Source: a virus
Reading direction: 5' to 3' (one strand)
IMG/VR virus record: IMGVR_UViG_3300025467_000079
Location: 1-22,358 of that record
DNA: 22,358 bases
Shown here: positions 10,904 through 20,845 of the stretch, piece after piece
How the letters are laid out: each line of letters starts with the position of its first letter
Position numbering within the stretch: position 1 is the stretch's first letter
Notes under the pieces: generated by a model
The model's input: the letters and a program-made list of their open reading frames with translations, nothing else
Told to the model about the DNA's origin: nothing
Database searches by the model: none
Translations under genes and position numbers: made by a program

Positions 10904-11173
10904 ATGGGTAACCAAACTCATCCGAGTCCTACGTTCCCGCAGTATCCCGGCGGTGCGTACGCCATCACGCCGAGTGACACGGCTAACATTCCGTTGCCGA
11001 ATGGTCACTCGTGCGTGGTTTATGTAGGCACGGGTGGCAACATCCAAGTCACTACGTCGAACGGGGATACCGCGACCTTCACGAACTTGAACAGCGGGTC
11101 TATCCTGCCTGTGCAGGTGACGAAGGTCTGGGCGACCAGTACGACTGCTTCAGGCTTGATCGGGATCTACTAA
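10904..11173 (+). CDS. Small conserved phage structural protein
   Basis: 89 residues; ribosome binding site AGGA upstream of ATG 10904. It is all-beta in character: SCVVYVGTGGNIQVTTSNGD, ATFTNLNSGSILPVQVTKVW and TASGLIGIY. The pattern 'VYVGTGGN...DT.TFTN...GSILPVQV..V..T.TTASG' recurs in many phages as a short virion-associated protein next to capsid or fibre genes; its role is not known to me. It lies in a same-strand run with the large fibre genes, one base before the next start, so it is probably translated together with them. Confidence 0.82.
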   Translation: MGNQTHPSPTFPQYPGGAYAITPSDTANIPLPNGHSCVVYVGTGGNIQVTTSNGDTATFTNLNSGSILPVQVTKVWATSTTASGLIGIY

Positions 11174-17963: not shown

Positions 17964-18203
17964 ATGTCGAAGCACGGTCATCACGAACATCACGGTCATC
18001 TCAAGCCCCATCACTCGAAGGGTCATCACGGTCCGCACGGCTCGCACGAGCATGCGACTCATGAGCATCACCCGAAGCATCATGAGCCGAAGCACCACAC
18101 CCATCACATGACGCCGCACCACATCCACCACTCGCACGGTGGTCATGTGGATACGCACTTGCATCACCGCGAGCATATCCTCAAGCACTTCCACGGGAAG
18201 TAA
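17964..18203 (+). CDS. Extremely histidine-rich 79-residue protein
   Basis: 79 residues, of which 34 are His (43%), spread through the whole chain as HH, HxH and HHxHH clusters (for example HHEHHGH, THEHHPKHHEPKHHTHH), with Lys, Gly, Glu and Pro and no Cys. It has a good ribosome binding site (AGGAGATTGAA before ATG 17964), so it is likely well expressed. This composition predicts binding of Zn, Ni, Cu or Co, and a charge that changes sharply near neutral pH. The end SHGGHVDTHLHHREHILKHF contains the two-glycine motif of its neighbours. No family is recognised. It sits between two basic low-complexity genes and could be a virion component or a metal buffer. The gene is supported by start, spacing and composition; the role is open. 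Confidence 0.85.
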   Translation: MSKHGHHEHHGHLKPHHSKGHHGPHGSHEHATHEHHPKHHEPKHHTHHMTPHHIHHSHGGHVDTHLHHREHILKHFHGK

Positions 18204-18206
18204 GTG

Positions 18207-18566
18207 ATGTTGTCTTCACGGGGCATGGGTGCCATAAATCCCAGTAAAGTCCCTACCCCCCGTACTGGGAGGAAGGTCCATGCCCCCGTGAAGGCTTGTT
18301 GTTCAGGTGGGAAGATGGCGAAGGGTGGGTTGGCATGGACTCGCAAGGAAGGCCAGAACCCGAATGGCGGCTTGAACGCTAAGGGTCGGGCGTCCTACAA
18401 CAAGGCACACGGAGCGCACCTCAAGGCTCCGCAACCGGAAGGTGGCCCTCGTCGGGATTCGTTCTGTGCCCGGATGAAAGGCGCGAAGCGTAAACTGACG
18501 AGCAAGAAGACGGCGAACGATCCGAACAGTCGGATCAACAAAAGCCTACGGGCGTGGAAGTGCTAA
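18207..18566 (+). CDS. Conserved phage protein (DUF6321-like)
   Basis: 119 residues from ATG 18207, with GGGAAG 6 bp upstream; GTG 18204 in the same frame is an alternative. The N-terminus is SSRGMGAINPSKVPTPR. The C-terminal two thirds, AWTRKEGQNPNGGLNAKGRA, DSFCARMKGAKRKLTSKKTA and NDPNSRINKSLRAWKC, is a well-conserved phage pattern that I believe is Pfam DUF6321 (from memory, not checked). It is very basic, has CC at 31-32, and ends on Cys. The function is unknown; basic charge and Cys residues would fit nucleic acid or metal binding. A strong nested hairpin (18212-18295) lies inside codons 2-30. Confidence 0.85.
   Translation: MLSSRGMGAINPSKVPTPRTGRKVHAPVKACCSGGKMAKGGLAWTRKEGQNPNGGLNAKGRASYNKAHGAHLKAPQPEGGPRRDSFCARMKGAKRKLTSKKTANDPNSRINKSLRAWKC
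18212..18295 (+). promoter_or_regulatory. Nested hairpin at the start of the DUF6321-like gene
   Basis: The outer stem pairs CTTCACGGGGCATGG (18214-18228) with CCATGCCCCCGTGAAG (18278-18293): 15 bp with one bulged C. It extends by a G-T and a G-C pair to 18212/18295. Inside it, CCCAGTA (18240-18246) pairs with TACTGGG (18263-18269) around a C-rich 16-nt loop. The element begins a few bases after the start codon, so it could slow or gate translation, protect the mRNA from decay, or act as a DNA site. There is no T-tract, so it is not a terminator. Confidence 0.75.
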
Positions 18567-19295
18567 ATGACCGCTACACTGTCTGGTCTTACGACGTTTA
18601 ATCCGAACCTCAACGACGTTGTTGAGGAGGCGTTTGAGCGTTGTGGCGCAGAGTTACGCTCGGGTTATGACTTGCGTACGGCTACGCGCAGTCTGAATCT
18701 GCTATTCATGGACTGGGCCAATCGCGGCGTCAATCTGTGGACGATGGATCTGTCGTATCAACAGGTGCTGACCCCCGGCGTAGCGACGTACACGATTCCC
18801 GTGGACACGGTAGATCTGCTCGACCATGTGATCCGTACAGGGTCTGGGACGACGCAGCAGGACATCAACATCACGCGCATCTCCAGTTCGACCTACCTCA
18901 TGATCCCGAATAAGAATGCCACGGGGCGTCCTATTCAAGTTTGGATCAATCGGTTGAGCGGTCAGACGGCGGCGGGTGGTAGCAGCACGACGTATCAGCC
19001 CACGATCACGGTCTGGCCTACGCCAGACAATTCTACGACGTACACGTTCGTAGCAACGCGGCTGCGGCGTATTCAGGATGCGGGAACAGGTCTCAACATT
19101 CAGGACATGTCGTTCCGGTTCTGGCCCGCGATGTGTTCGGGTCTGGCCTACTACTTGTCTATGAAGATCACCGGGGCTGAGTCACGTACGCAGGTTCTTA
19201 AGATGGCGTACGACGAGGATTGGCAACGCGCGGCAGACGAAGACCGCGAGAAGGCGGCGATTCGATTTGTTCCCCGTGAAACATTCTTGCGGTGA
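18567..19295 (+). CDS. Head-tail adaptor (head completion) protein
   Basis: 242 residues, starting one base after the previous stop. NLNDVVEEAFERCGAELRSG (14-33), then YDLRTATRSLNLLFMDWANR (34-53), gives the helical N-terminus. GVATYTIPVDTVDLLDHVIR, SSTYLMIPNKNATGRPIQVW and TITVWPTPDNSTTYTFVATR form the beta part. QDMSFRFWPAMCSGLAYYLS and YDEDWQRAADEDREKAAIRF close with helices. This matches the widespread adaptor family related to P22 gp4/T7 gp11-type proteins, which form a ring under the portal, seal it after packaging and receive the tail. Length and order fit. In this genome it lies 12 kb from the portal, beyond the fibre genes. Family assignment is from memory of the pattern. Confidence 0.78.
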   Translation: MTATLSGLTTFNPNLNDVVEEAFERCGAELRSGYDLRTATRSLNLLFMDWANRGVNLWTMDLSYQQVLTPGVATYTIPVDTVDLLDHVIRTGSGTTQQDINITRISSSTYLMIPNKNATGRPIQVWINRLSGQTAAGGSSTTYQPTITVWPTPDNSTTYTFVATRLRRIQDAGTGLNIQDMSFRFWPAMCSGLAYYLSMKITGAESRTQVLKMAYDEDWQRAADEDREKAAIRFVPRETFLR

Positions 19296-20146: not shown

Positions 20147-20845
20147 ATGCAGGTCATCTACAGCACGTCGTCGTCTGCGACGAACAACTTGTACACGATG
20201 ATTCAGAACTACTGTGAATCGTCGGAAGCGTCGTTCGTTGCGAACATACCGAACTTTGTACAGTTAGCGGAAGAGCGGATCTATAACTCTGTTCAGCTTC
20301 CTGTCATCCGACAGAACGCGACGGGTACGATGACTGCGGGCAATCAGTACCTCCAGTTGCCTTCCACGGTCGGCGGTGTGCCGGTGTCTTGGCTGTCGAT
20401 CTTCTCGGTCGCGGTCATTAACCCGAACAACATCGCGGGTAACATCAGTCAGGCGTTCTTGCTCGACAAGGACGTGAACTTCGTTCGCCAGTCGTATCCA
20501 GACCCTACGATCACCGGTACGCCGCAGCACTATGGCGTGTTTGACTCCAGTACGCTGATTCTTGGCCCTACGCCGGATCAGAACTACGCGGTCGAGATGC
20601 ACTACTACGGTTACCCTGCGTCCATCGTGACGGCAACCAATACATGGTTGGGCAATAACTTCGGTGAAGTATTGCTGTACGGTGCGGTGCGTGAAGGATA
20701 CGTCTACCTGAAGGGTGAGACGGACATGGCACAGAAGTACGACCAGATGTATCAGGAAGGCATGGCGCTGCTCAAGCAGCTTGGCGATGGCAAAGACCGT
20801 CAGGACGCGTATCGTTCTGGTCAGGTCAGGGTTAAGGTCACATGA
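20147..20845 (+). CDS. Phage adaptor/neck protein
   Basis: 232 residues. Helical start: YTMIQNYCESSEASFVANIP (16-35), then NFVQLAEERIYNSVQLPVIR (36-55). Beta centre: GTMTAGNQYLQLPSTVGGVP and AFLLDKDVNFVRQSYPDPTI, then YGVFDSSTLILGPTPDQNYA and EMHYYGYPASIVT. Helical end: TWLGNNFGEVLLYGAVREGY, then QMYQEGMALLKQLGDGKDRQ. I recognise this as a common phage adaptor family annotated near tail genes. Likely the second ring of the neck, binding the gene product of 18567-19295 or its tail partner. It has only a weak ribosome binding site, and its stop overlaps the next start (ATGA). Confidence 0.8.
   Translation: MQVIYSTSSSATNNLYTMIQNYCESSEASFVANIPNFVQLAEERIYNSVQLPVIRQNATGTMTAGNQYLQLPSTVGGVPVSWLSIFSVAVINPNNIAGNISQAFLLDKDVNFVRQSYPDPTITGTPQHYGVFDSSTLILGPTPDQNYAVEMHYYGYPASIVTATNTWLGNNFGEVLLYGAVREGYVYLKGETDMAQKYDQMYQEGMALLKQLGDGKDRQDAYRSGQVRVKVT

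Follow-up and report, generated by a model that had tools for sequence, protein, structure and literature searches.

The window analysed here, that is, the whole 22,358-base stretch of a virus record, encodes terminase, portal, capsid and SU10-type adaptor proteins, and by this gene content it is a fragment of an uncultured tailed phage. The His-rich gene at 17964-18203 encodes a protein of 79 amino acids, largely histidine ('HGHHEHHGHLKPHHSKGHHGPHG...'), for which no match was found in Pfam and PHROGs. The codons GTG ATG lie immediately 3' of its TAA stop codon and start a gene of 119-120 amino acids. An ATG start is common to all relatives of this gene, and from the sequences ATG 18207 appears more likely to be the start than GTG 18204. 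The gene product contains DUF6321 (PF19846) at amino acids 51-118 (E = 3.7e-21, 76 bits against a curated cut-off of 28.5), and its N-terminal part, 'MxxSRGMGAINP...PVK', represents a common family of small phage proteins. A nested hairpin lies in the first codons of this gene. The features of the locus are as follows.

17964..18203, + strand: His-rich gene, 79 amino acids; stop codon TAA at 18201-18203, in frame with the next gene
18204..18566, + strand: hairpin gene (N-terminal 'SRGMG...PVK' module and DUF6321); start at GTG 18204 or ATG 18207
18212..18228, + strand: outer stem, 5' arm; from the fold, the longest Watson-Crick stem in the window and frozen silent sites
18278..18295, + strand: outer stem, 3' arm, with C18283 bulged; from the fold and the alignment of relatives
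18239..18246, + strand: inner stem, 5' arm; from the fold, changes on both sides in relatives, and better fit of own than of swapped arms
18263..18270, + strand: inner stem, 3' arm; from the fold, the swapped-arm test and changes on both sides in relatives

The outer stem is composed of 15 Watson-Crick pairs (5' side 18214-18228) with one G-C and one U-G pair at the base, and the inner stem of 8 bp (18239-18246 with 18263-18270). In the window, the foot of the hairpin lies 5 nt after the A of ATG 18207 and 8 nt after the possible GTG 18204. The first-pass annotation had described a 15-bp stem with one bulge at 18212-18295, located in a DUF6321-like gene directly after the His-rich gene and lacking a T-tract. 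Its sequence and coordinates hold, PF19846 is matched above the curated cut-off, TAA 18201-18203 precedes GTG 18204 and TTGTTGTTCAGG comes after the stem. The nested perfect stem also exists, with a length of 8 bp instead of the 7 bp given there. Because TTGTTGTTCAGG, directly after the stem, has no T run, an intrinsic terminator was ruled out. Rfam 15 gave no match at or above the gathering score in the window.

Relatives were collected from IMG/VR by protein searches and pattern scans. These gave the hairpin block in fifteen distinct versions, one of which is shared by the window and L087. In all fifteen carriers the block begins 5-8 nt after the ATG. Eight of them (the window, L001, L002, L004, L005, L007, L008 and L110) form a codon-blind set, found regardless of codons. 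The six carriers L088, L092, L093, L176, L179 and L184 were found by DNA patterns that fix part of the arms, and the sample of carriers is small and recombining. Pairing between the arms exceeded that of synonymous shuffles in 12 of the 15 carriers (z -2.4 to -6.0). L110, L176 and L184 were within the range of the shuffles in this test; the hairpin of L110 is a weaker version, and L176 and L184 have a strong stem in folds. Among about 94 distinct other members of the N-terminal family, only L023 and L220 passed -2.4. The idea that the hairpin is general to the whole SRGMG family was thus rejected, since most members are without excess pairing. In pattern scans of viral contigs the hairpin was confined to one gene, and a covariance model found one strong place per locus besides weak mirror matches on the other strand. 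A tblastn search for cultured-phage relatives of the hairpin module gave none at E <= 0.1. In bacterial genomes no protein relative was found, and the genome contigs scanned for the hairpin pattern gave no match.

The arms of the hairpin have frozen silent sites. Within the codon-blind set, a single codon is used at 5 of the 6 four- or six-fold arm codons, compared with 3 of 49 in the remaining gene (p = 9e-5); the test was also run on this set because the search patterns of the six other carriers fix part of the arms. Hairpin-free relatives encode the same residues more freely, with Ser by TCA in 12 of 93 and Arg by CGG in 21 of 93. The natural 5' and 3' halves of the hairpin fit each other better than swapped halves, whose fit was as good in 0 of 20000 permutations for the whole hairpin, 1 of 20000 for the inner stem and 578 of 20000 for the outer stem alone, all uncorrected for relatedness. 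The outer-stem test is weak because the outer arms hardly vary.

In an alignment of ten sequences, four pairs have changed on both sides, three of them in the inner stem and one at the base; CCCAGTA/TACTGGG of the window, for example, corresponds to CCCAAC/GTTGGG in L004. Covariation across relatives, which the first-pass annotation had put forward as a check, is seen in the inner stem as compensating pairs, while the 15-pair outer core has only G-U changes in arms that hardly vary. No pair of that core is broken in the ten sequences, and all its changes are from A-U to G-U or from G-C to G-U. Since these changes would be mismatches on the other strand, the target of selection is likely the sense-strand RNA. 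The bulged base is at the same place in all ten aligned sequences. The outer arms are near-identical in sequence, even between carriers whose identity falls to 60-80% in the DUF part and 33-60% in the loop. By these comparisons, conservation of the hairpin in relatives beyond the needs of the protein is well supported. Support for a functional structure comes from the covariation, from the silent sites that are frozen and from the position of the hairpin in the tail of the synonymous shuffles.

No other Watson-Crick stem in the window with one bulge or none is as long as that of the hairpin, and a stem of equal length was found in 1 of 100 dinucleotide-shuffled windows. Total folding energy was z = -2.3 against dinucleotide shuffles (131 nt) and z = -2.2 against synonymous shuffles (3 of 200; first 102 nt of L087, identical to the window here). 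When only the pairing of arm to arm was scored, z was -4.1 and 1 of 300 synonymous shuffles of L087 reached it. Relative to G+C content, folding is equally good or better at several other places in the window. Total folding energy is thus weak evidence for the hairpin, and the arms-only pairing is stronger. The earlier view that such a hairpin is unlikely by chance applies to stem length; in total energy it is only modestly unusual, and in the comparison with synonymous shuffles, proposed in the same annotation, it lies in the tail with a modest effect. The weight of the case therefore rests on the relatives. As a separate observation, a 13-bp stem with one bulge at 10964-11019, within the ORF 10904-11173, comes second in the window by Watson-Crick stem length, and its region ranks first in the window for G+C-corrected folding energy.

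The surroundings of the hairpin are changeable. The upstream gene is His-rich in 9 of the 15 carriers (the window, L001, L002, L004, L005, L008, L111, L176 and L184), and a different gene, ending in '...ESKGKTRGRFC' or '...RGKFV', precedes it in the other six (L007, L088, L092, L093, L110 and L179). In L111 the hairpin is found with a phrog_17747 C-terminus instead of DUF6321, and in L184 an extra segment stands ahead of DUF6321. L008 is like the window in its N-terminal part, where it differs from L179, and like L179 in its C-terminal half, an unusual form of this half of DUF6321. L002 and L005 agree on both sides, with about 97% identity in DUF6321, and have diverged across the His-rich gene and the hairpin. 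From the C-terminal swap in L111, the changing upstream genes and the mosaics, we infer that the hairpin belongs to the N-terminal 'SRGMG...PVK' module and that the link to DUF6321 is not essential. It does not look like an insertion, judged from the alignment, because its arms fall on codons that are present in hairpin-free PVK relatives. The N-terminal module itself, 'SRGMGAINPSKMP...', is frequent in small phage proteins: about 109 distinct sequences have it, with C-terminal domains of several kinds (DUF6321, phrog_17747), and in the proteins scanned no match of Pfam or PHROGs covers the 'SRGMGAINPSKMP...' motif.

In all 15 carriers, the junctions read show the start codon adjacent to the upstream stop codon, overlapping it or only a few nucleotides away. 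Since stop and start also adjoin in hairpin-free relatives, the hairpin is not a requirement for coupling. According to a 2025 review (PMC12548453), structure in the start region can keep the downstream member of a coupled pair silent until its upstream partner has been translated, phages providing some of the examples, and coupling is lowered by structure just after the upstream stop. Two marks of such pairs are present here: adjoining or overlapping stop and start codons, and a stable, conserved RNA structure in the ribosome landing site of the downstream gene. Given both effects in the literature, the explanation that we favour, with slightly less than even confidence, is that the hairpin is an RNA element that acts in cis as a brake or gate on initiation of translation and is opened by ribosomes as they finish the upstream gene. 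Located 5-8 nt past the start codon, the foot of the stem would be within the stretch of mRNA covered by an initiating ribosome, and for this reason the folded hairpin should block fresh initiation on the downstream gene. Since stop and start adjoin in all carriers, ribosomes terminating on the upstream gene could open the foot and then restart. The downstream protein would thereby depend on upstream translation, and its yield would be held below that of the upstream protein. Formation of the hairpin is predicted from folding, and its action on translation is what we infer from its position. Of the three roles suggested in the first-pass annotation, the best fit is with control of how strongly the two genes are expressed relative to each other, by a mechanism that would be of this kind.

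The near-invariant sequence of the outer arms speaks against a pure gate, which would not need it. An operator, whose outer stem is recognised by a phage or host protein that represses or times translation or mRNA decay, would account for this invariance beyond pairing alone and for the bulged base kept at one place in the ten aligned sequences. However, part of this invariance is explained by the conserved SRGMG and PVK residues that the arms also encode, the inner loop is freely variable and no candidate binder emerged; we regard an operator as rather unlikely. Its more specific form, in which the operator is embedded in the exchangeable N-terminal module and bound by a protein of the phage itself (a virion protein, perhaps, or the small basic product with DUF6321), seems improbable. 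If it were true, regulation would move with the module between different proteins and upstream genes. The hairpin may instead stabilise or bound the upstream mRNA, or serve for RNase III-type processing between these genes, as its place directly after the upstream stop in every carrier and its long stem without a T-tract would allow. Cutting inside the next coding sequence would, however, destroy the downstream message, and where the upstream gene is a different one, the hairpin is still found with the downstream N-terminal module. A role of this type is accordingly doubtful in our judgement, and protection of the mRNA end of the His-rich gene, suggested earlier, is weakened because the hairpin is kept with different upstream genes in 6 of the 15 carriers.

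Complementarity between the SRGMG and PVK codons might also be an accident of protein conservation and composition. Conserved peptides can encode part of it (TCACGGGG with CCCCGTGA), and total folding energy is only modestly unusual, but the frozen silent sites, the covarying inner stem and the lack of excess pairing in nearly all of the approximately 94 SRGMG-motif relatives make such a by-product very unlikely. Equally slight is the chance that a DNA-level element, such as a recombination patch, a site-specific site or a mobile palindrome, is present. The region is active in recombination: the window and L008 share the N-terminal part and differ in the C-terminal half, and the differences between L002 and L005 are concentrated in the His-rich gene and the hairpin. 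Against this, pattern and model scans found one hairpin per locus and only in the hairpin gene, neither further copies elsewhere nor an enzyme that acts on the site came to light, and the arms match codons of hairpin-free PVK relatives with nothing apparently inserted; a mobile palindromic element was rejected on the single copy per locus and the absence of insertion. The earlier suggestion of a DNA site fits poorly because the changes in the outer core pair as G-U on the sense strand only and would be mismatches on the other. An element for readthrough or frameshifting that joins the His-rich and DUF6321 proteins is extremely improbable. In the window the upstream stop codon shares the frame of the next gene, and the distance of 8 nt from it to the stem is one that viral readthrough signals are known to have. 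Yet the frame relation changes between relatives: it is in frame in the window and L007, stop and start overlap as TAATG or TGATG in L088, L092, L110 and L179, and another frame is used in L176 and L184. A conserved element of this kind was rejected for that reason, and no slippery heptamer was seen by eye in the junctions examined.

Coupling with RNA structure in the start region is described for genes VII-IX of phage f1 and for the coat and lysis genes of MS2 (reviewed in PMC12548453). The present locus resembles these pairs in its adjoining or overlapping stop and start codons and in the RNA structure near the downstream start. It differs in that the stem is wholly in the downstream coding sequence, 5-8 nt past the ATG, and is kept by constraint on silent sites, and coupling is here a proposal. 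Among hairpins near start codons, that of the MS2 coat protein is an autogenous translational operator of the phage. Our hairpin shares with it a conserved bulge close to the start codon, but its stem is much longer and lies after rather than around that codon, and it has no known binding protein. REP-type intergenic palindromes, which are mRNA stabilisers, also consist of a long stem that lacks a T-tract and follows a stop codon between two co-oriented genes; unlike them, this hairpin is coding, single copy and tied to a downstream protein module. Rickettsial palindromic elements, which are mobile, are likewise in-frame palindromes within coding sequence, whereas here copies elsewhere and an insertion relative to hairpin-free relatives are both absent.

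To our knowledge, conserved RNA structures within phage coding sequences have seldom been documented outside model phages. This hairpin is short and has clear conservation statistics; proteins with the same motif and no hairpin form a natural control group, and natural domain swaps are also at hand. It therefore suits reporter tests of how a stem just downstream of a start codon determines the protein ratio of two adjoining genes in phages.

Two minor observations concern the neighbouring genes and DUF6321. One structural region of the window contains two separate SU10-adaptor-like genes (PF24175), at 18567-19295 (26.3 bits, just under the cut-off of 27) and 20147-20845 (74.4 bits). In Synechococcus phage MinM2 (L171), the DUF6321 gene at 2543-2788 is annotated as 'RecA-like recombination protein', a label to which the short sequence gives no obvious support.
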